Virus record (IMG/VR): IMGVR_UViG_3300032323_001633 | Span: 1 to 56,849 of that record | Length of the DNA stretch: 56,849 bases | Strand: one strand, 5' to 3' | Source: a virus | Shown here: positions 3,132 to 48,759 of the stretch, in pieces | How the letters are laid out: each line of letters starts with the position of its first letter | How positions within the stretch are numbered: position 1 is the first letter of the stretch | Notes under the pieces: generated by a model | Seen by the model: the letters and a program-made list of their open reading frames with translations, nothing else | The model's database searches: none | What the model was told of the DNA's origin: nothing | Position numbers and translations under genes: made by a program

Positions 3132-3163
3132 GGTATTCTCCTCAAATGGTATGGGCTGTTGTA

Positions 3164-3171
3164 TATTTAAC
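3164..3171 (-). promoter_or_regulatory. Weak candidate late promoter box (GTTAAATA)
   Basis: On the minus strand this reads GTTAAATA, which keeps the TAAATA core of the T4 late consensus TATAAATA but misses the first two bases. It lies 32 bp upstream of the chosen start of the acidic core protein, a normal distance. It also forms part of one arm of a hairpin. Confidence 0.35.
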
Positions 3172-3196
3172 ACGGAGATTACAAACCGGTGTTAAA
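3166..3196 (-). other. Intergenic hairpin over a stop codon
   Basis: An inverted repeat pairs 3166-3175 (TTTAACACGG) with 3186-3196 (CCGGTGTTAAA), with one bulged G and a ten-base loop. It covers the stop codon of the 218-residue gene at 3192. No U-run follows on the minus strand (UAUACAAC), so it is not a standard terminator. It could be a processing or attenuation site between that gene and the acidic core gene. Confidence 0.45.
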
Positions 3197-23307: not shown

Positions 23308-23309
23308 TT

Positions 23310-23747
23310 ATGGCCACAAGACTATACAATCAACAAACAGCAGCACAGCGTTCTGCTACAGTGACTCAGAATCAAGGTCAATTTACCTACAAAGGATTCA
23401 GTTCTAAAGAAGCTAACAAGAACTTCAAACTCTATGATATCAATCTTGTCAAGCAAGATTTAATCAATCACTTTTATATTCGCAAAGGCGAGAAACTAGA
23501 GAATCCAGAATTTGGCACAGTAATCTGGGACATGCTGTTTGAGCCATTTACGCCAGATGTTAAAGAGATCATAGCCAAGGATGTGGAAGCTATTATTAAC
23601 TATGATCCTAGATTTGCAGTCACTGAGATTAATATAGACAGCACAGATCAAGGCATGCGGATACAGGCAGATTTAGTGTATATTCCATTTAATATCACAG
23701 AACGAATGACTATGAATTTTGACAAAACCAACAGTGTAATTAACTAA
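23310..23747 (+). CDS. 25: Baseplate wedge protein gp25
   Basis: The 145-residue protein shows the gp25 pattern: a disordered N-terminus, then LYDINLVKQDLINHFYIRKGEKLENPEFGTVIWDMLFEPFTP. Next come YDPRF and a beta-rich end (QGMRIQADLVYIPFNITERMTM). gp25 is widely conserved in contractile machines and starts sheath assembly from the baseplate. It sits between gp5 and gp6 as expected. Confidence 0.95.
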   Translation: MATRLYNQQTAAQRSATVTQNQGQFTYKGFSSKEANKNFKLYDINLVKQDLINHFYIRKGEKLENPEFGTVIWDMLFEPFTPDVKEIIAKDVEAIINYDPRFAVTEINIDSTDQGMRIQADLVYIPFNITERMTMNFDKTNSVIN

Positions 23748-23776
23748 GCAGTTTATTTTTAAGGGTAAATATTGGT

Positions 23777-26700
23777 ATGACTACAACAAGCAGACAAAAC
23801 AATCTCATACTGAATCAAGATTGGACCAGGATCTATCAGACATTTAAAAACGCTGATTTCCGTAGCTACGACTTTGAAAATCTGCGTAGAGTTATTATCA
23901 CATACCTTCGTGAAAACTACCCAGAAGACTTCAACGACTACATAGAATCTTCAGAATACATGGCATTAATAGATGCCGTGGCGTTTCTAGGACAAAGCCT
24001 AGCATTCCGCATAGATCTTGCCAGCAGAGAAAATTTTATTGAATTAGCTGAGACTAAAGAAAGTGTGCTGCGTATTGCCCGCATGCTCAGCTATAATGCC
24101 AAGCGAACTGTAGCTGCCAGCGGCCTGTTAAAATTTACCACGGTGTCAACTACTGATACTATAATAGACAGCAATGGCAAGAATCTTGCTCAACAGTTAA
24201 TAACATGGAATGATCCTACAAATGTTAACTGGTTGGAACAGTTCCTTACGGTGTTGAACAGTGCCATGGCAGACAATACAGAATTTGGTCGCAGCCAGGG
24301 TTCGGCTACTATACAAGGCATTCCTACAGAACAATATAGATTTCGTACAGTGACCGCAGATGTGCCGTTATTCTCGTTCTCTAAAACTGTGGCCAGCAGA
24401 AGTGTAAATTTTGAAATAGTTAGCACCGCTTTTAAAAACAGTGAGAACATTTACGAAGAGCCACCGGTACCAGGTAACCAATTAGGATTTGTCTATAGAA
24501 ATGACGGGTCTGGACCAGGCAGTGCTAATACAGGATTCTTTTTACTGTTTAAGCAAGGCACATTAGAATTAGCAGACTTTGCAGTAGATGTGCCAACCAC
24601 TAATGAAAAAATTGCCGTAGATGCTGGCAATATCAATAATGACGATGTATGGTTGTTTTCTTTAAATTCACAAGGTGCTCAATTAGAAGAATGGACCAAG
24701 GTCTCATCACTGGTAGGCAACAACATTGCATATAACAGCGTAACGCAAGACATACGTAACATCTATGCTATCAATACCAAAGAAAATGATAATATTGATC
24801 TTGTGTTCGCCGACGGTGTCTATGGTAATCTGCCTCAAGGCGCTTTTAGAGTTTTTTATAGAACCAGCAATGGATTATCGTATACCATATACCCTAACGA
24901 GTTGAGAGGCATTAATATTTCTATTTTGTATAGAAATAAAAATAATGTTGAGCATACTCTAACAATAGGCCTGGCATTACAGAGCACTGTGGCTAACTCT
25001 GCTGCATCAGAAGACATTGATAACATTCGTGCCAATGCTCCTGCAGTTTATTACACTCAGAATAGAATGATCACAGCAGAAGATTATAATCTTGCTCCAT
25101 TGTTGGGATCACAGAACATAATAAAAATTAAAGCAGTGAATAGAACCAGCAGCGGCATCAGTAGAAATTTTGATATTCTCGATGCTACTGGAAAATACAG
25201 CAGTATAAATGTGTTTGGAGATGACGGATACATTTACAAACAACAAGATGAATCTATACTGTCATTTAAATTCACCAGCAGAATAGATATTATAAATTTT
25301 ATTAGACGTAATATAGAACCGGTATTTACTGATACCGAAGTTTACAATTTTTATTTTACAAACTTTGACAAAATATTGTTCACAGACGTTAACACAACAT
25401 GGCAATCAGTCACTACATCCACCAGTACAGGTTATTTTAAAAATATCATAGATAATTCTCAACTTAGAGTAGGAAGTTATTCTACCAGTAATTTGAAATA
25501 TGCTTTGATTAATGCATCTGTGAAATTTGTACCACCTGCGGGATACAGATTTAAAAAAGGCAAATTAGTTATAACAGATACTAACGATGCTGATCAAACA
25601 GAATATATCTGGACAAAGATTGTCAAAATCACAGGCGACGGCAGCTATGTTAAAGGGTTAGGCCCAATTACTCTTAACGAAATAGTTCCAACAGGAGCTA
25701 TTGCTCAACGTATAGTTCCGAGATTTGTCAGCGATTTGCCAGTCGCTCTAGAGACTGAAATTGTTAATCAAGTATTTGATACTCAAACGTTTGGTCTACG
25801 ATACGAGAACACAGAATCTCAATGGAAGCTGATAACGTCTAGTAATTTAAATCTCACAAATGATTTTACATTAGGTAAAGCTGGAGATACAACTAACACC
25901 AACATCGATAGTTCGTGGATTATAGCGTTTGTTAGACGGCCCGACAGCTACACAGTGAGAATTAGAAAACAGTCTTATATTTTTGGAAGTGTAAATCAAA
26001 ATAGATTTTATTTTGATAGCAATGAAAAACGCTATAACGATCAAGTAGGTGCAGTAGTTAAGGATCAAATTACGGTGTTAGGTATCAATACTGCAAAAGA
26101 TTTTATTACCCAACTAAGAAAGGATGTTCCTTTTGAAGTCAGCGACACAATAAAATTTGATGACGGATACGAAAGCACATCTGAAATTAAATTGAGTTTC
26201 AGAGATTCGGACGACGACGGCGTGATAGATAATCCAGAAGCATTTGAAAACATTGTTGGTCTAAATCAGGATTTAAATTTTTTATTTTTCCTATCGTCAA
26301 ATGATATATACGGAACAAAAATTCGCACACTGATAGATAATTCAACGGATTTAATTTTAATTAGACCAAAAGAAGCTGGAATTGATTTCAACGATACTGC
26401 ATCTTATCCAGATCAACAGTTGATATATTTCTATGATTCTGCTGAAGACATAGTAAAGCGGGTCGATCGTACTACCAACACATTAATTATCGCTAACGAA
26501 TATACAGCTGCAATTGGCAGAAGAAATTTAAAATTTCAATACTTGCATAATGCCAGCGTGGATCGAAGAATAGACCCTTCAACCAGTAATATCATTGACA
26601 TCTATTTGTTGATTAGAAATTACGATGAAAGTTACAGAATATATCTTGCAGGCGGAACAACTGCAGAGCCAGTGGCTCCTACAAGTGAAGCATTAAGAAC

Positions 26701-27166
26701 CACATTCGGTACCGCACTGTCGTCGATTAAATCCATCAGTGATGACATCATATATCACCCTGTGAAATACAAAACTTTATTTGGCTCTAAAGCAGAACCG
26801 CAATTACAGGCAGTATTTAAGATTGTAAAAAATCAAAGTCGGTCGATTAATGACAACGATCTCAAAGTCCGAGTAATCACTGCTATTAATGATTTCTTTG
26901 ATATTAACAATTGGGATTTTGGCGATAGATTCTATATGGGTGAATTAACCACATATATCTTAAACACAGTAGCCCCAGATCTTGCTAACATTGTTATTGT
27001 TCCAAGACAACCTGCTCAATCATTTGGTAGTCTCTTTGAAATACAAAGTCGATCAGATGAAATATTAATCAGCGCAGCCACTGTAGATGATATAGAAATT
27101 GTCACAGCTATCACAGCATCTGAAGTAGGCGCAAGCATCAATTCTATGGTATCAACCACTTACTAA
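23777..27166 (+). CDS. 6: Baseplate wedge protein gp6
   Basis: The 1129-residue protein carries a baseplate J-like core: FRSYDFENLRRVIITYLRENYPEDFNDYIESSEYMALID near the N-terminus, ASRENFIELAETKESVLRIARMLSY near residue 80, and ITAEDYNLAPLLGSQNIIKIKAVNRTSSG near residue 435. The C-terminus (KVRVITAINDFFDINNWDFGDRFYMGEL) is typical. gp6 forms the core of each wedge with gp7. It is larger than T4 gp6 (660), as in other marine relatives. A GGTAAATA box is present six bases before the ATG, but the AAGGG there may simply be the ribosome-binding site. Confidence 0.93.
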   Translation: MTTTSRQNNLILNQDWTRIYQTFKNADFRSYDFENLRRVIITYLRENYPEDFNDYIESSEYMALIDAVAFLGQSLAFRIDLASRENFIELAETKESVLRIARMLSYNAKRTVAASGLLKFTTVSTTDTIIDSNGKNLAQQLITWNDPTNVNWLEQFLTVLNSAMADNTEFGRSQGSATIQGIPTEQYRFRTVTADVPLFSFSKTVASRSVNFEIVSTAFKNSENIYEEPPVPGNQLGFVYRNDGSGPGSANTGFFLLFKQGTLELADFAVDVPTTNEKIAVDAGNINNDDVWLFSLNSQGAQLEEWTKVSSLVGNNIAYNSVTQDIRNIYAINTKENDNIDLVFADGVYGNLPQGAFRVFYRTSNGLSYTIYPNELRGINISILYRNKNNVEHTLTIGLALQSTVANSAASEDIDNIRANAPAVYYTQNRMITAEDYNLAPLLGSQNIIKIKAVNRTSSGISRNFDILDATGKYSSINVFGDDGYIYKQQDESILSFKFTSRIDIINFIRRNIEPVFTDTEVYNFYFTNFDKILFTDVNTTWQSVTTSTSTGYFKNIIDNSQLRVGSYSTSNLKYALINASVKFVPPAGYRFKKGKLVITDTNDADQTEYIWTKIVKITGDGSYVKGLGPITLNEIVPTGAIAQRIVPRFVSDLPVALETEIVNQVFDTQTFGLRYENTESQWKLITSSNLNLTNDFTLGKAGDTTNTNIDSSWIIAFVRRPDSYTVRIRKQSYIFGSVNQNRFYFDSNEKRYNDQVGAVVKDQITVLGINTAKDFITQLRKDVPFEVSDTIKFDDGYESTSEIKLSFRDSDDDGVIDNPEAFENIVGLNQDLNFLFFLSSNDIYGTKIRTLIDNSTDLILIRPKEAGIDFNDTASYPDQQLIYFYDSAEDIVKRVDRTTNTLIIANEYTAAIGRRNLKFQYLHNASVDRRIDPSTSNIIDIYLLIRNYDESYRIYLAGGTTAEPVAPTSEALRTTFGTALSSIKSISDDIIYHPVKYKTLFGSKAEPQLQAVFKIVKNQSRSINDNDLKVRVITAINDFFDINNWDFGDRFYMGELTTYILNTVAPDLANIVIVPRQPAQSFGSLFEIQSRSDEILISAATVDDIEIVTAITASEVGASINSMVSTTY

Positions 27167-27167
27167 T

Positions 27168-30100
27168 ATGGCCAATAAATTTTTTCCTAACAGTCAATTA
27201 CCTATACGTAGATCAGTAGAACTGCTGCCGGTAGTTTTTCAAACTCCTGCAAACGATAAGTTTTTATCTGCGGTAGTTGATCCATTAATCCAGCCCGGAG
27301 TATTAGACAAAGTTGTTGGATATATTGGTCGTAGATACGATAAAACTTTTAACGGCAATGATGTTTATGTTGACACCGACGCTACACTGCGCAGCAGTTA
27401 TCAACTAGAACCAGGGGTAATATTTAAGAATCACGATAAGATAGAAAATTTCTATGACTATGTTGATGTTAAAAACCAATTGAAATTTTTTGGTAATACC
27501 ATTGAACGTGATGACAAAGTAACTGGTCAAACTCATTACACTTGGGATCCTCCTATAGACTGGGATAAGTTTATCAACTATAGAGAATACTACTGGGAAC
27601 CACTAGGACCACGTAGTATTAAAATTTCAGGCCAAAGTGCAACAGTTACCAGCACATATAAAGTTGTTTTAGGAACTACTAAAAATTCATTTGTATTCAC
27701 CCCTGACGCATATACAAATAATCCCACGCTGACTCTATACAGAGGGCAGACCTACAAATTTCGAGTGAATGCCCCGGGTGAAGGTTTAGTTATTCGCACT
27801 AATTTCGATGCCGGTAGTTTATTATTTCAGCCCAGCAGAAGTTACCCACAAGGTAGCGTGGTGGTATATGATTCGAAACTATGGAGAGCTATACGAGATG
27901 TTACAAGTCTAGATACAAGTTCAATAACCATAGACAGCGAAGACTGGCAATACATAGAACCAGCCAGTGCGGCCAACTCATTAGATTACAATAAAGGAGT
28001 GGTAAACAACGGAATTGAAAACGGCATATTGACCTTTGATGTGCCATACGATGCTCCGAACACGCTTTATTATCAAAGCAAAATTACGCCAGATGCCTTT
28101 GGTCGATTCATTATCGCAGACATCGAAGAAAATACTTTTGTCAACGCAGATATAGATATTATCGGAAAAACCACATACACCAGCGGTAACGGTGTTGAAT
28201 TTAGTAACGGCATGATTATAGAGTTTACAGGTAATGTTACTCCTGAAAAATATCTCAATGATACTTGGTTAGTAGAAGGAGTAGGTACTGCTATTACACT
28301 GACTAGATTCAGTGACCTTGCAGCGCCCGCACTTAGCATAGAAGTGCCTGAAGTATTATTTGATAATGAAGGATTTGATACACAGCCATTTGACGATGCC
28401 ACAGAGTATGCTGCGGCAAAAGATTATATAACCATTGCAAGAGATAGCACAGACAATAATCCTTGGTCAAGATACAATCGATGGTTTCATAGATCTATTT
28501 TAGAAAAAGCATATCAATTAAGCGGTCAAGATTTTCCAGCTAATGAAACCGCCAGAGCCAAACGACCGATCATAGAATTCCGTGCTGGCCTGCAATTATT
28601 CAACCACGGTGTAGTCGCTAAACAAAGTGTGGATTACATAGATACCGCAACTACTGATATTTTTTCTATCATTGAAGGATCTAGAGGCTACAACATTGAC
28701 GGTGAATTTTTATTTGATGGAGCAAGAATATTAGTTGTAGCCGATCAAGACAAATTAGTCAACAATAAAATATACACTGTGGAATTTATTACTCATAATA
28801 ATTCTAAACAGATACATCTCAGAGAAAGTGTCGACACAGAATCGATCCTCGGACAATGCGTTACAGTAAGACGGGGAGTAATTAATAAAGGCATAATGTT
28901 CCATTTTAACGGAACTAATTGGGTACCCAGTCAACCTAAGACTGCTGTGAATCAAGAACCAAAGTTTGATGTCTTTGACAGCAACGAAATAAGTTTCAGC
29001 GATCGTACCACCTATCCAGACTCAGAATTTACAGGTTCGAGTATATTAAGCTACAAGCCAGGCAATGCAAGAATTGATAAAGAACTAGGTATTAAACTCA
29101 GTTATCTCAATATTGATAACATCGGTGATATAGAGTTTGACTATGATTGGGACATTGATACGTTTCGTTATACTGTTAATAATCTACCGGTAGACAAAAA
29201 AATATCTACAGGATTCTATAAATTAGGATCTAATTATGCTAATGGCTGGCAGCAATTAAATTCTAAATATCTACAACCTATAATCGACAATCAGATTGTA
29301 GGTGCCGTAACTGACACGTTAACATTTTCTACAATAAGATGGGAAAGTTTAACCACTGACCCCGAAATACACTTCGATCTTAACGGCGCAAAATACACAG
29401 GCACATGGACGAGAAATCTTGGTACCTTTGTATTCAGTAAACAATTTTCAGTGAAAGATGTTGTGGTAATTAAAATTATCACCGATGTTGACCCGGATCA
29501 AGGATACTATGAAATACCTGTTGGACTAGAAAAAAATCCTTTCAACACAGCTATCGCATCGTTTACTTTAGGGCAAGCTGTTGATCATATATCCAGTGCC
29601 GTAGAATGGGACAGCGAATTCCAAGGTCTATTGCCCGGTGCATCTAATCTTCGAGATCTCGAAAATTACAGACTATCTGCTAAAAGATTTTTAAAACACA
29701 GCGGTAATACACCGTTGGCTGTAATGGCGCTGTGTGATAAGACTCACAACATAGTTAAAGCAATTCAATACGCAAAGAAAGAATACACAGATTTTAAAAA
29801 CAATTTCTTGCAGAGAGCTATAGAAATTGATTACAACGATCAACTAATTGATTTTGTAGATGATATTATTAACAGTCTAACCGCAGTTAAAACAGCGCAA
29901 GATGCGTTTGCTGATTCGGACATGATTGGTGCAGGAGCATATACCGCATTAACAACAGTGGTAGAAGATATCGGTATCACTACATTTACATTGTCAGAGC
30001 GATTTGATTTGAACACACTCAGCAGCAGAGCTGTGTATGTGTATCTTAATGGAACTCAGCTACTGAATAGCCGAGATTATGAGTTTAGTCCTGCGTTCAG

Positions 30101-33100
30101 TTTTGTAAAAATTACTAAGCCTTTGACAGAAGGCGACACTATTGAAATCAGAGAATATCTCAGCACTTCTACGAATTTTATTCCGCCTACTCCTACATCT
30201 ATGGGATTGTATAAAAAATACACTCCTGTAAAATTTCTTGATGACACGTACAAGGAACCTAGATACGTTATTCAAGGCCATGACGGCAGTATTACAGCAG
30301 CGTTCGGAGATTTTAGAGACGACCTGTTGTTGGAATTAGAATTACGTATCTACAACAACATCAAACAACAATACGATCCTGCGGTCTTTGATATAGACCA
30401 AATATTAGCCGGCTATTACGGTGTTGGCGAATATTCTAAAAATCAGTTAGATAGGATTGTGGTACAAGATTTTCTAAAGTGGATTCAAAACACTAACATC
30501 AATTATACCTTAAATGAATATTTTGACAGCGAAAATTCATTTACTTATACCTATTCAAATATGTCAGATCCCACCAAGACCAAGAATATTCCTGGCTGGT
30601 GGAGAGGAGTATATCAGCATTTCTATGACACTGATCGCCCACATCGCTGTCCTTGGGAAATGTTGGGATTCAGTGAACAGCCTACATGGTGGCAGACTGA
30701 ATATGGATCAGCTCCATACACCAGCAATAATTTAATCTTATGGGAAGATCTCGAAGCTGGTATCATTCGTCAGGGCGTTCGAGCCGGAAGATACGATAGA
30801 TACAAACGTCCTGGATTGATTTCACATATTCCTGTTGACGGCGATGGTAAATTGCTGAGCCCGTTAGATTCTAATCTTGCTCAGGATTTTTCGCTGATTA
30901 ACAACCGTGGACCGTTTGTGTTAGGAGATGTGAGCCCAGTAGAGTATGCATGGAGATCCAGTTCGGAATGGCCGTATGCAATTATCACAGCTATGTGTCT
31001 CATGAAACCGTTTGAATATATTCCTGATAATTTTGATAGATCTAGAATTAAAAAAAATAAATTAAATCAATACACAAATACAATTACAGAATTATTTGTA
31101 ACTATCGCAGATATCGCACCGTATGTAACAGATCCTATAGCAGTGGGATTGGTAAAATATCTAACCAGTTACACCACAGCTCAAGGATTATCTAAGGATA
31201 GTCTGCAGACTAAAATAGAAAAGTTAGATGTGGCTTTGAGTTTTAGGATGAGCGGATTTGTGGATCAACAGCAGCAAAAATATCTCTTAGATTCTAAAAA
31301 TCCCGCTTCTACCGCTTCCAGCATCTTTATTCCTCCTGAGAATTATGACATTGTGTTTAACGTTAGCAGTCCAGTAGCTTCTGTTAGTTACAGTGGTATG
31401 AGACTGGAAAAAACTTCAGGCGGATGGATAGTAGCAGGTTACGATGATATTCATCCGTACTTTAATTACCATCAAGCTCAGGCCAGCAGTAAAGATCCTG
31501 TAATTTCTGTAGGCGGGGTTAGTGAGTCATTTACAGATTGGGTCGAAGATAAAAACTACAACAACGGTGTGTTAATAAGATACCAAAGTAATTTTTATCG
31601 TGCTTTAAAAACCCATCGTAGTGCAGGGGATTTTGATCGCAGCTTATGGCAGAAATTAGGAGATGTACCTAAGATAGGTGCTGTTGAAGCACTACGCAGA
31701 CGAGTGTTTAATACTATTACTGTAAAACAAATCAGTTATGGTACACTCTTGACCAGTATACAACAGGTAGTAGATCTACTGTTAGGCTATGAAAGCTATC
31801 TTAAAACACAAGGCATTGTGTTTGATAATTATGATCCGCAAAACGCCACCAGCCAAGATTGGCTCAGTGCTGCTAAAGAATTTATGTTCTGGACCAAGCA
31901 CAACTGGGATTCTGGTGCTATAATAGCTCTAAGTCCTTCCGCACAAAAATTAAAAATTTCTATCCCAGTAGGAACACCAGACAATCTGCTTGACGGATTC
32001 TACGATTATCAGATACTGAAAGGTGACGGAACACCGTTGGCTCCGAGATTCCTTAACGTCAACAGAAGTTTTCAGAATTTAGATATAGAAACTACAAACA
32101 CCACAGACGGCATTTATTTTGCAAGCCTACACTATGTAATTAAAGAACACGTTACAGTGTTTGATGATCGCACAGTATTCAATGATATTATCTACGATAA
32201 GTCCACAGGTTATCGTCAAGGTCGCATTAAAATGCAGGCCTTCCGCACAGTAGACTGGGACGGTGATTATACCAGCCCAGGATTCATATTCGACAATGTT
32301 GATATACAGACTTGGCAACCTTTCCGGGATTACAAACTGGGAGATATTGTTTCTTACAAATCGTATAATTGGACCAGCCTTGTAAATCAATTAGGTACAG
32401 AAACATTTAACAATGCCAACTGGACAAAATTAGATTCAACACCGATCAAACAATTGGTATCGAACTTTGACTATAAAATTAAACAGTTCAGCGATTATTT
32501 TGAAACTTCGTCCCAAGGACTTGATCAAAGTCAGCGAGATTTAGCTCGACACGCTATTGGATATCAATCACGAGATTATCTCCAAAATCTCGCAGAAGAT
32601 CCTGTAAGCCAATTTCAACTGTATCAAGGATTTATTAGAGAAAAAGGCACAGCAAACAGTATAACTAAAATTTTCAACAAGCTGAGCAGATCGGGATCTG
32701 ACAGCGTTGTACTTAATGAAGAATGGGCTTTCCGCCTTGGGCAGGTCGGCGGTACAGATCAATTTTCAGAAATTGAAATACAACTAGAAAAGAACAAATT
32801 TAAATTAAATCCTCAACCTCATCTAGTCATCGCCAGCGAACTACCGACGGTATCGGATCAATATTATAGATTCACTGCTAACGATTTTACAATTTCACCA
32901 ATTCCGTACACATCGGATATTTTACCTACCACATCGGAGATTGTGCCGGAATTTACTGCCGGGTATATTAGCTCAGGACAATACCAGCATGTGATCGGTA
33001 GATTAGATCAGCTGACAACTCTCGACATAACCACGGTTAACGAAAACGATCATATCTGGGTAACTTTTTATCAAGACAGCTGGCAGGTACTTCGAGTCAA

Positions 33101-36100
33101 CGAATCACCACTGTTATATGTCACTGAATTAGTGCGGGTAGACGACACTGTAGTCACCTTAACATTAAACAGACCGCATTCAGTATCCGTCGACGATTAC
33201 ATAGGGTTCCGTGAAATAATCAATCTCAGCGGATTTTTTAAAGTCAGTGCAGTGACCAACACTACAGTGACAGTTGAGGTTAGTGCAGACATTGATGATC
33301 CTGAATTAGACGCCAGCACCACAGTTAATATTCAGTTATTGACCACAGCAAGATTTGCAGACTACGCCGCAGTTGATCAACATCCGGCAGCACTTCTAAA
33401 AAATAAATCATTAGTATTTGTAGACAACAATGGTGATGATCTATGGGAAGTAGTGGAGAAAAATAAATTATATACCGCAAAAACCATAGCAGACTTTGGT
33501 ATCACAACTCCGGTATCAGCAGGATCTAAAGTCATTTATGACAACAATAACAAGCATGTAATCAGCAGTATTCCAGGTTCGGGATTTGTTAATGTGCATG
33601 TGGAAACACCTTCAGGGCTGATATTAAAACAGATCATAGCACCACCAATAGGTTTCTTCGACATAGCGTTGGGATCATTCGGTGAAAAGATGGCTGTTAG
33701 TCCTGACGGCAAATATCTTGTGATAGGAGCACCGTTAGCCAGCGGTGTTGTGAATAGATATATGGGCGAATGGCAGACCGAATTTACCTACGAACAAGAT
33801 GACATCGTATTGTACGGTGGCAGACTTTACAGAGCTTTAAATGCCAACGGAAACTTTGTAGGGTTAGGCGACGGCAGCACTCAAATAGCCATAAACTCCG
33901 ACGACTGGGTTCCGCACACCGCAGTGATACCTGCTGCAACCTCAGGACGTAATCCTGGATATTACCAGCAAGGTATGGTAGCTGTTTATGAATTTATCAG
34001 CGGAAGATATATCAATGTTACCGCATTTGTCTCTCCGAGACCCACAGACAACGAAAAGTTTGGATCAGAAATTACCATAGGTGTCAACGGCACCGAATAT
34101 TATATGGCAGTATCTGCCATAGGATCCTATAACAATACCGGTCGAGTATATCTTATCAAGTACACAGGCACAGAGTGGACACACATGGAAAATCCTCTGT
34201 ACAAAGGCACATACAATCTACTTGATTCATACAGACAAGGTGACATAGTATGGCAGGCTGCACAAGATCCTATTTCTGAAACAGTACGAGGCAATCTATG
34301 GCAGAGTCTAGACGGGTCAACGTCAGACGGTAGCACTATAACTTTAGAGTCACAGAATTGGCTCAAAGTCAGCGATATATCCACGCACTGCTCTTTGCCC
34401 ACTAACATCTCTGTGGAAGACGATGGCTCTACCATGGAGTTTACAACCACAGGTCTTTTAACCAATACACAAAAAGCAGAATTAGTCAAGCAAGGCGATC
34501 AGTTTGGTTTTTCTATGGCCATGAGCAGAGATGGCAGCATATTAGTTATTGGTGCGCCCGACAGTGATGGTCAATATTTTGCAAATTATCGAGGGCTATG
34601 GCGCGGCGATGTAGAATATGTCGAGGGCGAAGTAGTTCGTCACAGAGGCTCTCCAGGTGATTCATATCAGTACTATCAGCTTGGCGACGGTTTTTTAGGC
34701 CCAGACAGCACTTACCGTAGCTACAACGAAGATCCATCCGACAGTGCAAATTGGCAACAGGTAGGAGACAGTACCACAACCTCCAGCGGTAAGATATTTG
34801 TATATAAGAAATCTGCATATGATTCATATGAATTCACTCAGATGATCAACGCAGGAACTCTCTCATCGTTCACTGACATAGATTCTGGATTAGTAATCAG
34901 CACAGGGGATCAATTTGGGTTCAGCATGGATATAGATGCCAACGGTACAATGTTGGCAGTTTCAAGTCCTCGAGCAGATATAAATTATCAAGACCAAGGT
35001 GCAGTATACATTTTAGAATTAGATCAATCAGTAACTGAATTCCGCGTTAAACAGCGTTTACAGAGTTACGAAATTTACACCAATGAATATTTTGGATTTG
35101 CTGTATCAGTAAGCCCAGATGGAGCGAAGGTTGCTATAGGAGCGAGAAATTCTAAAACACCATTTCCTGTAAATTTTGATATATTAGAAGGCACAACATT
35201 TGATAATGCAAGAACAAGATTTTATGTAGAACAAGGATTTACTGGCGGAGTATACGTATTTGATAAAAAAGATCAGGTGTTTTTCTTAACAGAAAAACTT
35301 GACAGCGATCTTCAAGCAGACGAATCATTTGGTCACAGCATTGATTGTATAGGTACAAAATTATTAGTAGGATCTCCGTATTATAAAAACGCAATTACAA
35401 ATACCTATCAGGGTATAGTGCGCTTGTTCACTGCAGATGCTGCCGGTTCTAGCTGGACAATATTAGCGAATCAAACGCCGTTAGTAGATCTTAGAAAAAT
35501 TAAAAAAATTGAACTTTATGACAATGTTGCTAATGTTAAAATAGCAGATTTAGATTACATAGACGCTGCGAAAGGAAAAATACTTAACATTGCCGAACAG
35601 GAATTAAAATATAAAACTCCATACGACCCTGCAGTCTATACTGTAGGTACAGCAGAAGTGGTAGTGGATACTACTATAAACTGGTTGGAAAAAAATGTAG
35701 GCAAGTTGTGGTGGAACACTGGCACAGCTAAGTTTCAATATGCAGAACAAAAAGACTCTGCTTATAGAATAGGTAATTGGAATCAACCAGTGCTGGGATC
35801 TAGCATTGATGTATATGAGTGGGTAGAAACAGTACTGCTGCCCAGTGAATGGGCTGCGTTGGCAGACACTAACGCTGGGCTATCTCAAGGAATCAGCGGA
35901 CAACCGTTGTATCCTAACAATGATGTGTACAGTGTAAAATTCTTCTTTAGTCCTACTACCGGTGACGTTTCAGAAACACTGTATTACTATTGGGTACGTA
36001 GCAAAGCTGTAACTCCATCCAATATGCCTGATCGCATAAGATCAGCTGCTGAGGTGGCTGATCTAATTGCCAACCCAGCTGGAACCGGTCTTGCATTCGT

Positions 36101-39100
36101 GGCATTTTTGCAGGCAGATAAATTCTTAAGTTATAATTTTAAATCAATAATGCAGTCTGATACTGCATTGATAAATCTACAGATTAGAAAAAATTTAGAA
36201 TCGCAAGTTCCTATTCACAACGAATATCAACTGTTAACTGAAGGAATAGCAGATAGTTTACCTTCTGCAAAATTAGAAAACAAATGGATTGACAGTCTTG
36301 TTGGTTCCGATATCTCTGGCAATCGTATTCCGGATGCAGCACTGCCTGCAAAACAAAAATACGGGATACAGTATAGACCGCGTCAAACTATGTTTGTTGA
36401 TAGAATATTAGCATTGAAAATTGTTATAGAATATATCAACGGCATTTTACAAAAAGAAACATTTGCAGAAACTATAGATTTTACCAATCTCAACAGTGTA
36501 GACACCGTTCCCAGCATCGAGTTAAATTTATATGATGTAGCAGTAGATACCGATGTTGATTTGCAGGCAGTAGGTACAACAAATATCAAACGTGCAATTC
36601 TACGAGCTAACCTAATCAACGGAGAACTAGACACTGTAGATATTGTGGATCCCGGATACGGATACAAACCTAGAGAATTGTTCGATCAAGAGCTGCCGGG
36701 TGTCTATCTCGGTCCTCCAGTGACTATATCGGGTGATGGTATAAACGCCACCGCAGTTTGTCATATAGATAGTCAAGGTCGAGTTATTCAAGCTGTAGTG
36801 ACTAATCGTGGTAAAAAATACAGCAGTATGAACATCCAAGTTAGGTATTTTTCTGTGTTAGTAAATGCTGATAGAACTTTAAATAATTTCTGGAGTATAT
36901 ATTCTTGGGATGACTCACGAAAAGTATATTTCCGCAGCAAATCGCAGTCGTTTGATACTACAAAATATTGGACTACTGTAGACTGGAAAAAAGAAGGGTA
37001 TGATAATAATCTTAAAATTATCAAAGAATTTATCAGTATCTATGAAATTGTCGACGGCCAAATTAAAGTCGGAGAAGTTATCAGAGTCAAAGAATATGCA
37101 GCCGGTGGCTGGGCAGTGTTTGAAAAAATATCAGACACTGCTGCAGAGTTTTTAGATCGATATCTATTGATCAGCAGACAGAATGGCACCATTCAACTGA
37201 ACTCATCGTTATACGATACAGCTACTATCGGGGTAGGATTTGATAATACACAGGCATTCGATACCACCACATATGATATCGAAAATGCTCAAGAATTGAG
37301 AAATATTTTTACAGCAATTAAACAAGATGTGTTTATCGGTAACTATTCTGTAGAGTGGAACAAATTATTCTTTGCTTCTATACGACACGTTTTAAGTGAA
37401 CAGCAATATGTAGACTGGATATTCAAAACAAGTTTTTTAAACGCCACACACAATGTTGGAGCTTTTGAACAAAAAGTCAATTACAAAAATGACAATCTTG
37501 AAAGCTACCAGGAATATATCCACGAAGTAAAACCATTTAGAACTACAGTGAGAGAATATGTCAGTCGTTATGATACACCGGAAACATATGCATCTGCTGC
37601 TACAGATTTTGATTTACCGCCGGTGTATTCAGTATTTGACGGCCGTGCTAATCCTGTAAATTCTTCCTCAACAGAAATATCTCAGTATCCGTGGAAATGG
37701 TGGGCAGATAATAATGCGTATTCGGTAACAGCTATTGAAGTGTATCAGCAAGGCGCTGGATATAATACCGCACCTAAAGTGTTGATTGAAGGAACAGGTA
37801 CCGGTGCCACTGCTAGAGCATTTATTTCTAATGGCAAGGTTTCTGGTATACAGGTGTTAACTACAGGCTCTGGTTATACTTCAGCACCGACTGTTAGATT
37901 AGTGGGAGGAAATCCTACTATCTCTGTGCAAGCCAAAGCTGTGGCAATAATAGGTGACTCACAGGTTAGAACGTTTGATGTTTCGGTGAAATTTGATAGA
38001 ATTTCAAAAACTGGAATCTACAATACGTTTTCGCAGACACAGACATTTACTGCCACAGGAAGTTCTGCGGTGTTCTTATTAAATTATGCTCCGACCAACG
38101 ACAAAAGTAAAATTACTATAACACGGACATCGTTTGCGACTAAAAAAACACAGGTAGTATTATCCAGCGAATATACTATTAGTTTGTATTATCAGACCAC
38201 TGACAGCTATTCTCTATTACGAGGCAAGTTGATATTTAATGTAGCTCCTACGAAAGATGACACAATCACAGTAAGCTATGATAAAAATGTCACGCTTTTT
38301 GATGCAGTGAATAGAATCAATCAATCCTATGCACCTAAAGCTGGCATGGTCGGAAAAGAACTGAATCAGTTAATGACTGGTATTGATTTTGGCGGAGTAC
38401 AGATACAAGGTACTACCTTTGACGTCACTGGTGGATGGGATGCTCTACCTTGGTTTACTGACAACTGGGATTCAGTTGAGACCAGCGCAGATTATTATTT
38501 TATAGTTGATGGCATACGATCTTTTGTTGACTCTACAGCGATATATTTGAAAGATGAAATTGTGGAAGTCAACGGCATATTGTACAAAGCACTAAAAAAC
38601 AGTGTTGACACCGCAGGCAATGTTATTATTCCTATTATTTCACAGGAGTGGCAGTTATTCTGGGAAATATTCACAGTGAGACTACCTTATGTACCTGCTG
38701 TAGGTCAAAAAATTAATATCTACATCAAGCGCAAAAATACTAATATCACAGTTCGTATAGATGACGAGTTTTACACAGCTAATAATGATTCTAGCACAGG
38801 CGTAAATCCAACAGCAGAAATGCCAACGTTTGTCGGCGACGGCGTTAGCAATGGAATTCAAATTGGCCAATATCTATTAGTCAACAATGAAGACACATTA
38901 ATTTTCCGTCCTATAGAAAGTGACGGTAGTGTTTCAATAAATGATAATAATATTTTAGATACTAGACTCAGCGGTGGATCGCTGTCGGCTATTAGCAATG
39001 CCTATGTCACTGCCGCAGGCACTACAGCAGAAGAAATATCTATCACCGGTGGTAAGTTTATAGACCCTACAGTGGTACCAGCACCCGAAGAAAATGTTCC

Positions 39101-41129
39101 AGGACAGGTTATAGAAAGTGTTTCAATCAAAGTATATAACAACACAACATCTGGCGCAGCACCGCTGCATTCTAACGTAAAAATTGCTGACGGCACAACG
39201 ACTCAGTTTTCTATAGGGCAGGCTGTATTAGAAAATAAATCAGTTTTTGTTTATGTAGACAACATATCAAAGACTGTAGACACTGATTATACAATCAATC
39301 TACAAACCAATACTGTAAATTTTGTTGTAGCCCCATTGGCAGATAAAATAGTAGAAATACTCAGTATAGGTATTGGAGGTGTGGGTATTTTAGATTATCA
39401 GAGCTATATCGCAGATGGAACTACAGGTTTATTTTTAACCAACGCTAATTATGATAACACCAGTAACATATTTGTAAGCGTGAACGGAACTCAAGTAGAT
39501 GTGGGATTCCGTAATAGCACAAATGTAATTGATGCTGTGGGTAAAACTTTGGTTGAATTTGGAATCACACCACAGGTGGGCGATGTGGTAAAAATTGTAT
39601 GTTTAGAAGCCAGCACGGATGCAGATAGCTCAGGACTATCATTAGTACAGATCAATACACAAACTTTTTATTATGAAGGCAGCACAAGAAGTTTCAACAT
39701 CGATGGTCTTAGTGAATTAGCTCGAGGGTCGTTGTTGAGTTCTGTGTTGGTAGAAGTTGACGGACACTTATTGAAAGGACCTGACACAGTGTATGCTGTC
39801 TATAACGGATCTAACAATGTTATCCAACTTGGTGTAGATCCAATTGAGGCCGGCGGCAGCATATTACCAGCAAATCTAAAAGTTCTAATTAATGATCAAC
39901 TTAGATCATTTATTGTAGACTATACATTAGATGGCCCTGCTAAGGTACTAACGTTGAATCCTTTAAAATTATCAATAGGCGATAAAATTACCGTTGTTAA
40001 TGATTTAAGAGCAGAATATTCTATAGACGGGAATACTATTGCAATTTCTGCAGTCTATCCGATGGTCAGCGTTAATGAAACAGACAACGTTCCAATTGTA
40101 GTGACTTGGTTCGGCGAATATCCATCTATGAATATCATTCAAGATGAAAGTACCGGTAGTCGTGTTCAGTATCAATTATCAAGACCTCCTATCTCTGTAA
40201 GCTATGTGTGGGTATACAAGAACGGTATACGCCTTAGCCAAGACAAGGATTATTATGTGATTTTACCGAGAGCGGTAGTTTACCTTACAGTAGATTCATT
40301 GCCTTCCGATGAAATCAAAATTGTTAATTTCAGTAATGATATTTTTAAATTACCATCAGCATATGAAATACATAAAGATATGTTGAATGTATATCATTAT
40401 AACAGATTTTCAAAAGACAAATGCAAATTAGCTCAACCGTTAAACTACTTTGATACTAACATATTAGTTACAGACGCTACTGGGCTGTCGCAACCCATTA
40501 CTACTAGAAATTTACCGGGAGTCGTGTTTATAGATGGAGAACGCATCGAGTACATGGTTAAATCGGGTAATACACTAAGTCAATTGCGTAGAGGGGCTCA
40601 AGGCACAGCTATAGCACAAATACATGCCGAGGGCACAGCAGTAGTTGACGTAGGATACAGTGAAGTAATACCATATAACGAAACTCAGCAGAGAACAGAT
40701 TTTACCAGCGACGGTAGTACACTGCTGATAGGGCCACTAGATTTTACGCCTCAAAAAGCATCAAGAAGCGGTACCTGGTACAGAAACACTATCCCATCTA
40801 CTTACGGTCCTTGCGATCAAATAGAAGTGTTTGCTGCAGGTCGAAGATTGAAAAAAGACCCACAGTCTGTGTATGTAGAAGCCAACGGTGCTGCCAGTCC
40901 AGCGGCAGACGAAACACAAGAAGCAGAATTCAGCGTAGACGGAGCTGCGGCTCAGATAAGACTAACAGCAGCATTGCCAGCAGGCACACGAGTGACTGTG
41001 TTGAGAAGACAGGGTAAAACATGGCATAGCAGAGGAGAAACCACAGCTACTAACGGTGTTAGTTTAATAGATTCTGATACAGCTATAGCAAAATTCATTG
41101 TGGAAAAGACCACCGCGATACCTGAATAA
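27168..41129 (+). CDS. 7: Giant gp7-like baseplate protein with FG-GAP propeller and carbohydrate-binding-like modules
   Basis: One open frame of 4653 residues follows gp6 directly. The N-terminus (MANKFFPNSQLPIRRSVELL, YIGRRYDKTF, DVYVDTDATLRSSYQLEP, WDPPIDWDKFINYREYYW) is the gp7-type start of marine T4-like phages; T4 gp7 itself is 1032 residues. Residues about 2165-2760 hold six FG-GAP-like blades (FGEKMAVSPDGKYLVIGAP near 2168; others near 2298, 2446, 2583, 2642 and 2721), suggesting a beta-propeller. At least seven segments follow the pattern Y-x2-GD-(IV)-V-x-Y-...-(LY)-Y-(RK)-A-L...W, like small chitin/carbohydrate-binding modules. Near residue 3525 a GAGYNTAPKV / GSGYTSAPTV pair occurs. 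The C-terminus has IDGERIEYM (near 4456) and VFAAGRRLKKDP (near 4556), modules I associate with many marine virion proteins. No separate gp8 gene is seen. Likely role: wedge core plus host-surface contact. Confidence 0.88.
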   Translation: MANKFFPNSQLPIRRSVELLPVVFQTPANDKFLSAVVDPLIQPGVLDKVVGYIGRRYDKTFNGNDVYVDTDATLRSSYQLEPGVIFKNHDKIENFYDYVDVKNQLKFFGNTIERDDKVTGQTHYTWDPPIDWDKFINYREYYWEPLGPRSIKISGQSATVTSTYKVVLGTTKNSFVFTPDAYTNNPTLTLYRGQTYKFRVNAPGEGLVIRTNFDAGSLLFQPSRSYPQGSVVVYDSKLWRAIRDVTSLDTSSITIDSEDWQYIEPASAANSLDYNKGVVNNGIENGILTFDVPYDAPNTLYYQSKITPDAFGRFIIADIEENTFVNADIDIIGKTTYTSGNGVEFSNGMIIEFTGNVTPEKYLNDTWLVEGVGTAITLTRFSDLAAPALSIEVPEVLFDNEGFDTQPFDDATEYAAAKDYITIARDSTDNNPWSRYNRWFHRSILEKAYQLSGQDFPANETARAKRPIIEFRAGLQLFNHGVVAKQSVDYIDTATTDIFSIIEGSRGYNIDGEFLFDGARILVVADQDKLVNNKIYTVEFITHNNSKQIHLRESVDTESILGQCVTVRRGVINKGIMFHFNGTNWVPSQPKTAVNQEPKFDVFDSNEISFSDRTTYPDSEFTGSSILSYKPGNARIDKELGIKLSYLNIDNIGDIEFDYDWDIDTFRYTVNNLPVDKKISTGFYKLGSNYANGWQQLNSKYLQPIIDNQIVGAVTDTLTFSTIRWESLTTDPEIHFDLNGAKYTGTWTRNLGTFVFSKQFSVKDVVVIKIITDVDPDQGYYEIPVGLEKNPFNTAIASFTLGQAVDHISSAVEWDSEFQGLLPGASNLRDLENYRLSAKRFLKHSGNTPLAVMALCDKTHNIVKAIQYAKKEYTDFKNNFLQRAIEIDYNDQLIDFVDDIINSLTAVKTAQDAFADSDMIGAGAYTALTTVVEDIGITTFTLSERFDLNTLSSRAVYVYLNGTQLLNSRDYEFSPAFSFVKITKPLTEGDTIEIREYLSTSTNFIPPTPTSMGLYKKYTPVKFLDDTYKEPRYVIQGHDGSITAAFGDFRDDLLLELELRIYNNIKQQYDPAVFDIDQILAGYYGVGEYSKNQLDRIVVQDFLKWIQNTNINYTLNEYFDSENSFTYTYSNMSDPTKTKNIPGWWRGVYQHFYDTDRPHRCPWEMLGFSEQPTWWQTEYGSAPYTSNNLILWEDLEAGIIRQGVRAGRYDRYKRPGLISHIPVDGDGKLLSPLDSNLAQDFSLINNRGPFVLGDVSPVEYAWRSSSEWPYAIITAMCLMKPFEYIPDNFDRSRIKKNKLNQYTNTITELFVTIADIAPYVTDPIAVGLVKYLTSYTTAQGLSKDSLQTKIEKLDVALSFRMSGFVDQQQQKYLLDSKNPASTASSIFIPPENYDIVFNVSSPVASVSYSGMRLEKTSGGWIVAGYDDIHPYFNYHQAQASSKDPVISVGGVSESFTDWVEDKNYNNGVLIRYQSNFYRALKTHRSAGDFDRSLWQKLGDVPKIGAVEALRRRVFNTITVKQISYGTLLTSIQQVVDLLLGYESYLKTQGIVFDNYDPQNATSQDWLSAAKEFMFWTKHNWDSGAIIALSPSAQKLKISIPVGTPDNLLDGFYDYQILKGDGTPLAPRFLNVNRSFQNLDIETTNTTDGIYFASLHYVIKEHVTVFDDRTVFNDIIYDKSTGYRQGRIKMQAFRTVDWDGDYTSPGFIFDNVDIQTWQPFRDYKLGDIVSYKSYNWTSLVNQLGTETFNNANWTKLDSTPIKQLVSNFDYKIKQFSDYFETSSQGLDQSQRDLARHAIGYQSRDYLQNLAEDPVSQFQLYQGFIREKGTANSITKIFNKLSRSGSDSVVLNEEWAFRLGQVGGTDQFSEIEIQLEKNKFKLNPQPHLVIASELPTVSDQYYRFTANDFTISPIPYTSDILPTTSEIVPEFTAGYISSGQYQHVIGRLDQLTTLDITTVNENDHIWVTFYQDSWQVLRVNESPLLYVTELVRVDDTVVTLTLNRPHSVSVDDYIGFREIINLSGFFKVSAVTNTTVTVEVSADIDDPELDASTTVNIQLLTTARFADYAAVDQHPAALLKNKSLVFVDNNGDDLWEVVEKNKLYTAKTIADFGITTPVSAGSKVIYDNNNKHVISSIPGSGFVNVHVETPSGLILKQIIAPPIGFFDIALGSFGEKMAVSPDGKYLVIGAPLASGVVNRYMGEWQTEFTYEQDDIVLYGGRLYRALNANGNFVGLGDGSTQIAINSDDWVPHTAVIPAATSGRNPGYYQQGMVAVYEFISGRYINVTAFVSPRPTDNEKFGSEITIGVNGTEYYMAVSAIGSYNNTGRVYLIKYTGTEWTHMENPLYKGTYNLLDSYRQGDIVWQAAQDPISETVRGNLWQSLDGSTSDGSTITLESQNWLKVSDISTHCSLPTNISVEDDGSTMEFTTTGLLTNTQKAELVKQGDQFGFSMAMSRDGSILVIGAPDSDGQYFANYRGLWRGDVEYVEGEVVRHRGSPGDSYQYYQLGDGFLGPDSTYRSYNEDPSDSANWQQVGDSTTTSSGKIFVYKKSAYDSYEFTQMINAGTLSSFTDIDSGLVISTGDQFGFSMDIDANGTMLAVSSPRADINYQDQGAVYILELDQSVTEFRVKQRLQSYEIYTNEYFGFAVSVSPDGAKVAIGARNSKTPFPVNFDILEGTTFDNARTRFYVEQGFTGGVYVFDKKDQVFFLTEKLDSDLQADESFGHSIDCIGTKLLVGSPYYKNAITNTYQGIVRLFTADAAGSSWTILANQTPLVDLRKIKKIELYDNVANVKIADLDYIDAAKGKILNIAEQELKYKTPYDPAVYTVGTAEVVVDTTINWLEKNVGKLWWNTGTAKFQYAEQKDSAYRIGNWNQPVLGSSIDVYEWVETVLLPSEWAALADTNAGLSQGISGQPLYPNNDVYSVKFFFSPTTGDVSETLYYYWVRSKAVTPSNMPDRIRSAAEVADLIANPAGTGLAFVAFLQADKFLSYNFKSIMQSDTALINLQIRKNLESQVPIHNEYQLLTEGIADSLPSAKLENKWIDSLVGSDISGNRIPDAALPAKQKYGIQYRPRQTMFVDRILALKIVIEYINGILQKETFAETIDFTNLNSVDTVPSIELNLYDVAVDTDVDLQAVGTTNIKRAILRANLINGELDTVDIVDPGYGYKPRELFDQELPGVYLGPPVTISGDGINATAVCHIDSQGRVIQAVVTNRGKKYSSMNIQVRYFSVLVNADRTLNNFWSIYSWDDSRKVYFRSKSQSFDTTKYWTTVDWKKEGYDNNLKIIKEFISIYEIVDGQIKVGEVIRVKEYAAGGWAVFEKISDTAAEFLDRYLLISRQNGTIQLNSSLYDTATIGVGFDNTQAFDTTTYDIENAQELRNIFTAIKQDVFIGNYSVEWNKLFFASIRHVLSEQQYVDWIFKTSFLNATHNVGAFEQKVNYKNDNLESYQEYIHEVKPFRTTVREYVSRYDTPETYASAATDFDLPPVYSVFDGRANPVNSSSTEISQYPWKWWADNNAYSVTAIEVYQQGAGYNTAPKVLIEGTGTGATARAFISNGKVSGIQVLTTGSGYTSAPTVRLVGGNPTISVQAKAVAIIGDSQVRTFDVSVKFDRISKTGIYNTFSQTQTFTATGSSAVFLLNYAPTNDKSKITITRTSFATKKTQVVLSSEYTISLYYQTTDSYSLLRGKLIFNVAPTKDDTITVSYDKNVTLFDAVNRINQSYAPKAGMVGKELNQLMTGIDFGGVQIQGTTFDVTGGWDALPWFTDNWDSVETSADYYFIVDGIRSFVDSTAIYLKDEIVEVNGILYKALKNSVDTAGNVIIPIISQEWQLFWEIFTVRLPYVPAVGQKINIYIKRKNTNITVRIDDEFYTANNDSSTGVNPTAEMPTFVGDGVSNGIQIGQYLLVNNEDTLIFRPIESDGSVSINDNNILDTRLSGGSLSAISNAYVTAAGTTAEEISITGGKFIDPTVVPAPEENVPGQVIESVSIKVYNNTTSGAAPLHSNVKIADGTTTQFSIGQAVLENKSVFVYVDNISKTVDTDYTINLQTNTVNFVVAPLADKIVEILSIGIGGVGILDYQSYIADGTTGLFLTNANYDNTSNIFVSVNGTQVDVGFRNSTNVIDAVGKTLVEFGITPQVGDVVKIVCLEASTDADSSGLSLVQINTQTFYYEGSTRSFNIDGLSELARGSLLSSVLVEVDGHLLKGPDTVYAVYNGSNNVIQLGVDPIEAGGSILPANLKVLINDQLRSFIVDYTLDGPAKVLTLNPLKLSIGDKITVVNDLRAEYSIDGNTIAISAVYPMVSVNETDNVPIVVTWFGEYPSMNIIQDESTGSRVQYQLSRPPISVSYVWVYKNGIRLSQDKDYYVILPRAVVYLTVDSLPSDEIKIVNFSNDIFKLPSAYEIHKDMLNVYHYNRFSKDKCKLAQPLNYFDTNILVTDATGLSQPITTRNLPGVVFIDGERIEYMVKSGNTLSQLRRGAQGTAIAQIHAEGTAVVDVGYSEVIPYNETQQRTDFTSDGSTLLIGPLDFTPQKASRSGTWYRNTIPSTYGPCDQIEVFAAGRRLKKDPQSVYVEANGAASPAADETQEAEFSVDGAAAQIRLTAALPAGTRVTVLRRQGKTWHSRGETTATNGVSLIDSDTAIAKFIVEKTTAIPE

Positions 41130-41132
41130 ATA
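41125..41132 (+). promoter_or_regulatory. Candidate late promoter AATAAATA at the end of the giant gene
   Basis: Seven of eight matches to TATAAATA, followed by C. The box overlaps the stop codon of the giant gene and lies 25 bp before the chosen start (41158) of the next gene, a normal spacing. Confidence 0.65.
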
Positions 41133-41157
41133 CATGATGGAACAAAAAGAGATCAAA

Positions 41158-41808
41158 ATGCCAAATAATCAAGACCAGCAAGCAAATACCTCTCAATCCC
41201 GCCCAAATGAAACCGGCGGATTTCACTTCGAAGGGCATATCAAAATACACGATCCCGAAACCAAAGAAGTTTTTGTGGATAAACGTAATGCTATTCACTA
41301 TGAAAACATGAGCGTGGCCATGGTTAACAGTCTTAGCAATCAAGGATACGGTACAGTATATCAAATGATTTTTGGTACAGGCGGAACCACAGTAGACCCT
41401 ACGGGGCTTATCACATATCTTACTCCTAACACAGTGGGAGTGAATTCTAGCTTATATAATCAAACCTACCAAAAAGTAGTGGATCAAAATGCCATTGAGA
41501 ATCAAGACCCCATTCGAAATAAAATGCAGATACGGCACATCAGTGGAGCTACCTATAGCGATATTTTGATTAGCTGTTTGTTAGACTACGGTGAGCCGTT
41601 GGATCAAGAAGCGTTCGATAACAGTGTGGACATGAACGGTTCGTTTGTATTTGATGAACTGGGATTAAAAAGTCTTGGACCAAATACCTCAGATGGAAAG
41701 CTATTGACACATGTGATATTCCACCCTGTGCAAAAAAGTTTGAATCGATTACTGCAGATAGATTATACTATACGTGTGCAGAGTTTAACCGGATTTGCTG
41801 AGGTCTAA
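41158..41808 (+). CDS. Conserved marine T4-like virion protein
   Basis: The 216-residue protein contains HFEGHIKIHDPETKEVFVDK, NAIHYENMSVAMVNSL, IFGTGGTTVDPTGLITYL, MQIRHISGATYSDILISCLLD and HVIFHPVQKSLNRLLQIDYT. I recognise this pattern from structural proteins that follow gp7 in marine T4-like phages, but a T4 equivalent is not clear; it may take the place of gp8 or another peripheral baseplate part. Met at 41158 is chosen because the late promoter box at 41125 and an AGAGA motif seven bases upstream both point to it. Frames starting at 41098, 41134 or 41137 are possible but would overlap the promoter or the giant gene. Confidence 0.8.
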   Translation: MPNNQDQQANTSQSRPNETGGFHFEGHIKIHDPETKEVFVDKRNAIHYENMSVAMVNSLSNQGYGTVYQMIFGTGGTTVDPTGLITYLTPNTVGVNSSLYNQTYQKVVDQNAIENQDPIRNKMQIRHISGATYSDILISCLLDYGEPLDQEAFDNSVDMNGSFVFDELGLKSLGPNTSDGKLLTHVIFHPVQKSLNRLLQIDYTIRVQSLTGFAEV

Positions 41809-43928: not shown

Positions 43929-43941
43929 TAGGTAAAATAAC

Positions 43942-45756: not shown

Positions 45757-45774
45757 TGAATTAGGAGCGGCTAA

Positions 45775-48366: not shown

Positions 48367-48368
48367 TA

Positions 48369-48725
48369 ATGTATTACGTGTGTATCGAAAATAATAATGT
48401 AATAAGTGTATTAAATTACAGGCCGAACGTTCCTTCTTCTGTAACGATAACTGAAATCACAGATGCCCAGTATGGTCAAATAGAGGCTACCACTCATAAA
48501 TTTGACGTAGGGACAAAAACTGTAATAGCAAATCCAGATTATAGTCAGGCGGCAAAAGAACAACAACAGAAAAATGCTGTAGAAAGAGAATTTTTAAACA
48601 GTACAGATTGGAAGATTTTACGGCATATCAGGCAGAAAGCACTGAATATCGCCACAAGTCTATCAGATGCAGAGTATACGCAACTTGAGCAGCAGCGTGA
48701 AACCGCAGCAGCTCGTATAGTATAA
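48369..48725 (+). CDS. Putative tail fibre assembly chaperone
   Basis: The 118-residue protein starts MYYVCIENNNVISVLNYRPN and ends with NAVEREFLNSTDWKILRHIRQK...LSDAEYTQLEQQRETAAARI. A small beta-rich N-terminus with a helical C-terminus built around (L/F)xxTDW is seen in tail fibre assembly proteins of the Tfa/DUF4376 type. Its place right behind the long fibre gene supports a chaperone role for the fibre tip. An ATG at 48357 is possible but would overlap the fibre stop; 48369 has GGAG seven bases upstream. Confidence 0.65.
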   Translation: MYYVCIENNNVISVLNYRPNVPSSVTITEITDAQYGQIEATTHKFDVGTKTVIANPDYSQAAKEQQQKNAVEREFLNSTDWKILRHIRQKALNIATSLSDAEYTQLEQQRETAAARIV

Positions 48726-48729
48726 CAGC

Positions 48730-48737
48730 AATAAATA
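48730..48737 (+). promoter_or_regulatory. Late promoter AATAAATA
   Basis: Seven of eight matches to TATAAATA, followed by C. It lies 22 bp upstream of the next ATG, with an AGGGG ribosome-binding site between them. Confidence 0.75.
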
Positions 48738-48759
48738 CAAGATATTAGGGGCTAACAGC

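Follow-up and report, generated by a model that had tools for sequence, protein, structure and literature searches.

A giant wedge-position protein of jumbo phages carrying a predicted integrin-type beta-propeller with carbohydrate-binding-like insertions

We analysed a stretch of 56,849 bases, an IMG/VR virus record that we call the window, and found that it encodes a 4653-residue giant protein whose domain architecture is new within a known family; the feature is real and widespread. On balance, we favour the reading that this is a wedge core protein of jumbo phages with a swappable site, occupied here by an integrin-type propeller that is decorated with carbohydrate-binding modules (CBM) and would serve in adsorption or in the docking of fibres. 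The features on which the analysis draws are listed below; residue numbers are those of the giant.

23310..23747, plus strand: gp25-type wedge subunit (phrog_43, 4.2e-16; gp25 annotation syntenic in CBB)
23777..27166, plus strand: gp6-type wedge subunit, directly upstream of the giant (phrog_10646, 1.5e-285; phrog_219, T4 gp6 family, 1.4e-21)
27168..41129, plus strand: giant virion (wedge) protein, 4653 aa (PHROG_10938, E 9.9e-302)
27825..27962, plus strand: CBM5/12-like module, residues 220-265 (own HMM, E 1e-18)
30168..31157, plus strand: most conserved scaffold domain, residues 1001-1330 (75-92% identity in bins; common to all jumbo relatives)
31536..31670, plus strand: CBM5/12-like module, residues 1457-1501 (own HMM, E 2e-14; Foldseek matches to chitin-binding domains, e.g. 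1ed7)
32307..32444, plus strand: CBM5/12-like module, residues 1714-1759 (own HMM, E 7.8e-16)
32445..32753, plus strand: gp7-like helical core motif IGYQxRDYL...FYxGFIRxKGTxxS, residues 1760-1862 (kept in all relatives)
33486..35528, plus strand: predicted seven-bladed integrin-type FG-GAP beta-propeller, residues 2107-2787 (Pfam FG-GAP_2, AlphaFold2, Foldseek)
33486..33662, plus strand: degenerate FG-GAP repeat 0, the first blade, residues ~2107-2165 (model strands 2122-2157; clear repeat in relatives L151 and L265)
33765..33920, plus strand: CBM5/12-like module A, in a propeller blade, residues 2200-2251 (Pfam CBM_5_12, best stretch 2201-2226; own HMM, 1.4e-17)
34206..34376, plus strand: CBM5/12-like module B, in a propeller blade, residues 2347-2403 (own iterated HMM, E 4.1e-15)
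34581..34772, plus strand: probable third, divergent CBM-like insertion, residues ~2472-2535 (HMM-recognised counterparts in relatives)
35529..36467, plus strand: scaffold restarting past the variable site, residues 2788-3100 (start matched in 8/8 jumbo relatives, P 6e-4 to 6e-12)
36600..36848, plus strand: GxGY-type module, residues 3145-3227 (phrog_438, E 1.7e-12; a mobile module, not gp8 itself)
37365..37613, plus strand: C-terminal core motif DWxFKTS...EVKPYRTxxREY, residues 3400-3482 (kept in all relatives)
38538..38654, plus strand: CBM5/12-like module, residues 3791-3829 (own HMM, E 1.6e-6)
41101..41808, plus strand: conserved small virion protein after the giant (phrog_11259, 5.5e-72; PA5oct counterpart detected by mass spectrometry)

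The open frame, its family and its neighbours

The giant is encoded by one unbroken, ATG-started frame and is 4.5 times as long as T4 gp7 (1032 aa), in agreement with an earlier note on this DNA, which had described a single protein of 4653 residues, over four times the T4 length. The same note had allowed for a frameshift or an assembly join, and the extreme length could indeed suggest several genes fused by error; nevertheless, the entire frame is open in about 30 independent IMG/VR contigs (4.6-4.7 kaa), collinear with the window at 64-90% identity, which refutes an artefact and leaves it a vanishingly small probability. These contigs are among the 58 loci of near-constant length, showing 63-93% identity, that a search with residues 2101-2901 retrieved. 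Using the conserved scaffold as a query, we retrieved 583 related stretches and retained the top 80, in which frames reach 5242 aa.

Judged by its sequence, the window gene is a jumbo-phage member of the PHROG_10938 giant structural proteins, the profile matching in four stretches that cover most of the scaffold. A length of this order is nothing unusual in the family, whose cultured jumbo members measure 3.3-4.6 kaa: PA5oct (3857 aa), Atu_ph07 (4449), Phosso (4555), SCTP-2 (3807), RaK2 (3326), Vibrio phage 2.275.O (3771), CBB (3340) and Munch (3342). These giants show 22-29% identity with that of the window over the full length, and all eight lie directly behind a large gene, for which most of the records give a wedge-subunit annotation. 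The Atu_ph07 giant is gp180, and AP-J-162 gp58 is a further member. In the window, the giant comes after the gp25-type and gp6-type genes, in this order, and before a conserved gene of 0.7 kb and a set of four fibre-like genes; gp25, gp6 and giant also follow each other in PA5oct, CBB, Munch and others, as well as in cyanophage S-PM2. Additionally, PA5oct gp355, which belongs to the family, is tagged ESI-MS/MS in its record and is therefore a virion protein. Together, the gp6-giant order in jumbo phages and S-PM2 and the PA5oct tag support the wedge role proposed in the earlier note.

The four fibre-like genes (41811-50562) have in common an N-terminal domain of ~90 aa (phrog_14394, 15511, 8309) and differ in their remainders, as if their proteins docked at equivalent sites. 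Elsewhere in the window, a gene on the minus strand (5767-8565) adjoins the portal gene and encodes a 933-aa protein with no PHROG match.

A predicted propeller with modules inserted in its blades

The segment spanning residues 2107-2787 is predicted to be a seven-bladed integrin-type beta-propeller. Pfam FG-GAP_2 matches the whole protein at 2e-16 and the region alone at 2.7e-22, the latter scoring 79.1 bits against a cut-off of 23. The six FG-GAP segments of the earlier note were located, starting at residues 2171, 2298, 2446, 2583, 2642 and 2721 (nt 33678-35528), but the count has to be corrected to seven, given the degenerate repeat at ~2107-2165 and the seven clear repeats of the distant marine relative L265, which contains no CBM insertions. 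In the relative L151, the first repeat is a plain FG-GAP where the copy in the window is degenerate. Five copies conform to the strict FG-GAP pattern, within residues 2171-2660, and the sixth, from 2721, is looser; 1000 residue shuffles of the giant gave a mean of 0.004 strict copies and a maximum of 1, versus the 5 observed.

AlphaFold2 modelling of residues 2075-2830 with 51 relatives (pLDDT 80.3, pTM 0.81) predicts a propeller whose strands form seven blade sets, and Foldseek comparisons of the model with the PDB retrieved integrin alpha at the top, with alphaM (E 6.3e-12) followed by alpha5, alpha4 and alphaX, at a probability of 1.00. The integrin-like propeller that had been suspected from the letters, and for which structure prediction on residues 2100-2800 had been proposed, is thus supported. 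The whole-query TM-scores to integrin alpha are modest (0.38), probably in part because the CBM insertions have no counterpart in integrin, and phmmer with the whole giant yielded no matches in the PDB. The resemblance to the propeller of the integrin alpha headpiece, its best PDB match, extends to the seven FG-GAP blades and to the presence of insertions, an I domain in alphaM and alphaX and CBM5/12-like modules in the window; however, identity is 10-16%, there are no complete calcium loops and there is no beta subunit. The DxDxDGxxD loop is complete in none of the repeats of the window sequence, the nearest being DIDANGTML in repeat 4. Calcium-binding loops of this type are not a requirement for FG-GAP_2 propellers. 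In BFVD, the viral structures that match the propeller best belong to giant viruses of eukaryotes, among them Mimivirus LCMiAC01 and Terrestrivirus.

From profile comparisons, the propeller carries two or three CBM5/12-like modules within its blades. Pfam CBM_5_12 scores 55.5 bits on the giant, against a cut-off of 26.2. The copy of the third insertion in the window is itself not significant, with counterparts recognised by HMM in relatives L104 (residue 2463) and L116 (2664). A Foldseek search with the model of residues 1001-1900 gave no significant match (best E 0.06) and no baseplate gp7; its high-probability matches were CBM-like only, among them the chitin-binding domain of chitinase A1 (1ed7, E-value 0.2). 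The modules may bind a polysaccharide such as chitin, and those at the conserved scaffold positions 220, 1457 and 1714 may have a structural role.

The variable site and the gp7 position

We found no FG-GAP repeats in the giants of the eight cultured jumbo relatives (0/8), which have other sequence at the site. Their fillings measure 234-1562 aa, and the scaffold restarts right past the site in all eight. The site of the Atu_ph07 giant (L006, about 20870-25555) holds ~1.5 kaa rich in GxGY-type repeats and no propeller. A LamG-like filling suspected by eye in SCTP-2 and RaK2 was discarded, because Pfam retrieved nothing for SCTP-2 and an E of 0.074 for RaK2. Conversely, our FG-GAP HMM found at least one match in each of the 112 environmental giants that measure 2900 aa or more, a partly circular result since the HMM was built from the same set; with the independent Pfam FG-GAP_2, relatives L116, L132 and L152 are above the cut-off and L161 is below it.

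In a tree of residues 1001-1900, a single branch, with a support of 100, separates all the propeller bearers from the rest, while the placement of SCTP-2 and PA5oct is unsure because some outgroup branches are long. For this sample, the tree points to a single origin of the propeller, in a clade of environmental giants. Divergence is faster in the propeller than in the scaffold, with identities of, for example, 43% versus 68%, 61% versus 75% and 28% versus 59%; the length of the propeller is constant among close relatives and its decoration is variable. In a 281-kb relative, FG-GAP repeats are confined to the giant. The undecorated propeller of L265 is in a 35%-identical giant (NZHE01000016.1) from a MAG labelled Rickettsiales, a label that is a weak hint of the host or else a binning error.

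Related propellers also occur as proteins of their own in the same wider phage group. Atu_ph07 gp320 (L264:7019-8200) is a separate FG-GAP propeller of 393 aa, annotated as 'hemagglutinin' and adjoining tail sheath genes, and a likeness to human integrin was reported for the AP-J-162 hemagglutinin gp213 (PMC11242549). These stand-alone propellers (375-393 aa) lie outside the wedge protein, and gp320 is without CBM insertions.

The earlier note assigned the N-terminus to the gp7 type, and this likeness was not confirmed: alignments of T4 gp7 and gp8 compared with the giant family in hhalign matched no part of the giant, although the gp7 alignment has little depth (Neff about 2), and the gp7 profile phrog_964 found no match in jumbo phages and missed S-PM2 as well. 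There is, nevertheless, a helical motif, NFxxxxxxFxxYF...IGYQxRDYL...FYxGFIRxKGTxxS, that is near-invariant across the giant family. Its KGT part aligns with residues 193-218 of the S-PM2 protein, and the latter with residues 732-755 of T4 gp7; the match between the giant and S-PM2 is weak (27.9 versus a maximum of 22.3 in 60 column shuffles, P-value 0.0016). Modelled alone, the motif helices have low pLDDT, which would be expected of helices that need gp6 in order to fold. Since this weak motif, at 1760-1862, is the sole signal and the T4 profiles are silent, the gp7-like part would be near residue 1800 and not at the N-terminus. In all, gene order speaks for the giant as the gp7 counterpart, and sequence does so weakly.

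S-PM2 p084 (L087:7073-16216) occupies a comparable position, between gp6 and gp8. It has 3048 aa and contains a YHYH domain; its two core motifs are over 1.5 kaa apart, and large insertions lie behind its KGT motif. T4 gp7 also follows gp6, yet it has 1032 aa and no propeller, and the giant shows no detectable overall sequence similarity to either protein. Marine T4-like phages may generally have enlarged proteins at the gp7 position.

That there is no separate gp8, as the earlier note stated, holds at profile sensitivity: phrog_977, which detects S-PM2 as a positive control, gives no match in the window or the genomes of related giants, except for a weak, short match elsewhere in Atu_ph07 (E 0.008). 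Neither does phrog_977 match the giant itself, and a gp8 fusion was rejected because phrog_438, of the cyanophage gp8 family, matches the mobile GxGY insert alone, a module recurrent in many phage proteins. The giant might replace gp8, a suggestion for which there is only this absence of evidence.

Proposed role and significance

In the reading that we favour, the gene product would be the jumbo-phage counterpart of the gp7-position wedge protein, with a conserved scaffold (~residues 1-1880 and 2790-3480) that would join gp6 and gp25 as a part of the wedge. The two scaffold parts would be separated, just past the short helical core motif, by a tolerant insertion site, filled in a large clade of uncultured phages by the predicted seven-bladed propeller; in the subclade of the window, CBM5/12-like modules would have entered the blades, comparable to the I domain in some integrin alpha propellers. 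The propeller would most likely jut from the wedge rim and serve in adsorption, either by binding polysaccharide on the surface in the first reversible contacts or by positioning the fibres there before the baseplate opens. We infer the rim position, the ligand, the adsorption role and the host contact; as a predicted function, a host- or fibre-binding platform is plausible.

Several observations argue for this reading. The faster divergence of the propeller, its CBM-like insertions and the presence of other material at the site elsewhere point to an exposed, recognition-type domain, and a scaffold that flanks other fillings in propeller-free jumbo relatives suggests display at a variable site. 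The 'hemagglutinin' annotation of the stand-alone propellers of Atu_ph07 and AP-J-162 (PMC11242549) is consistent with recognition. Wedge-borne adsorption has a precedent in Bacillus phage Vp4, whose wedge protein Gp119 is enlarged by carbohydrate-binding modules and was shown to bind cells (PMC11406892), although Gp119 has 831 aa, different CBM folds, another wedge type and no propeller. In T4, gp7 and gp8 form a platform for gp6, and domain A of gp7 swings outwards during the baseplate change (PMC3004832); by analogy, and as speculation, a domain borne by the giant could also move on triggering.

Other observations weaken it. The four ordinary fibre genes downstream would be the more usual receptor binders, CBM5/12-like modules also occur at scaffold positions 220, 1457 and 1714, the canonical calcium loop is incomplete in every repeat, and homology to gp7 is weak, with blank T4 profiles and no baseplate gp7 in the fold search with residues 1001-1900. 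The main rival casts the propeller as an internal platform, docking tail fibres or doing the jobs of T4 gp8 and gp9 without touching the host, which we consider unlikely while granting it an appreciable chance. It would account for the lack of a detectable gp8 in the window and its relatives, for the constant length of the propeller in near relatives and for the common docking sites that four consecutive fibre genes with one N-terminal domain would need; however, propeller-free jumbo relatives are likewise without a recognisable gp8, so that the propeller is not needed as its substitute, and faster divergence with variable decoration fits an exposed module better. An even less probable rival places the giant among peripheral tail or fibre proteins, as one encoded beside the wedge genes and not the gp7 counterpart. 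GxGY and CBM modules are typical of such proteins and the T4 gp7 profile match is not significant, but this improbable alternative has to face the constant gp25-gp6-giant order in PA5oct, CBB, Munch, others and S-PM2, and a helical KGT motif that the giant has in common with the S-PM2 protein, the copy there matching T4 gp7 as well.

A bolder version of the adsorption reading, which we put forward tentatively and hold to be rather doubtful, is that surface-recognition domains are exchanged at a site in the gp7-position protein of jumbo phages that is dedicated to them; in one clade, this site would have captured a propeller of the kind seen in relatives as a separate 'hemagglutinin', which later gained lectin-like modules in its blades, making the wedge a fibre-independent primary adsorption device.

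For T4, the wedge core (gp6, gp7) counts as machinery, with recognition being the task of the fibres. In the open-access literature we did not find FG-GAP repeats described in a baseplate wedge, nor a propeller joined with CBM-like blade modules in a wedge-position protein; the large size and the integrin-like phage propellers were each known. Here, a protein at a core position, conserved across jumbo phages, carries a predicted integrin-like propeller and insertions of carbohydrate modules at a fixed site, an architecture which suggests that contact with the host surface, or the holding of the fibres, falls to a core protein of the baseplate itself. If the propeller is exposed, these phages would recognise cells through the wedge itself, and the site in the giant offers a defined place to study how baseplates acquire recognition domains.
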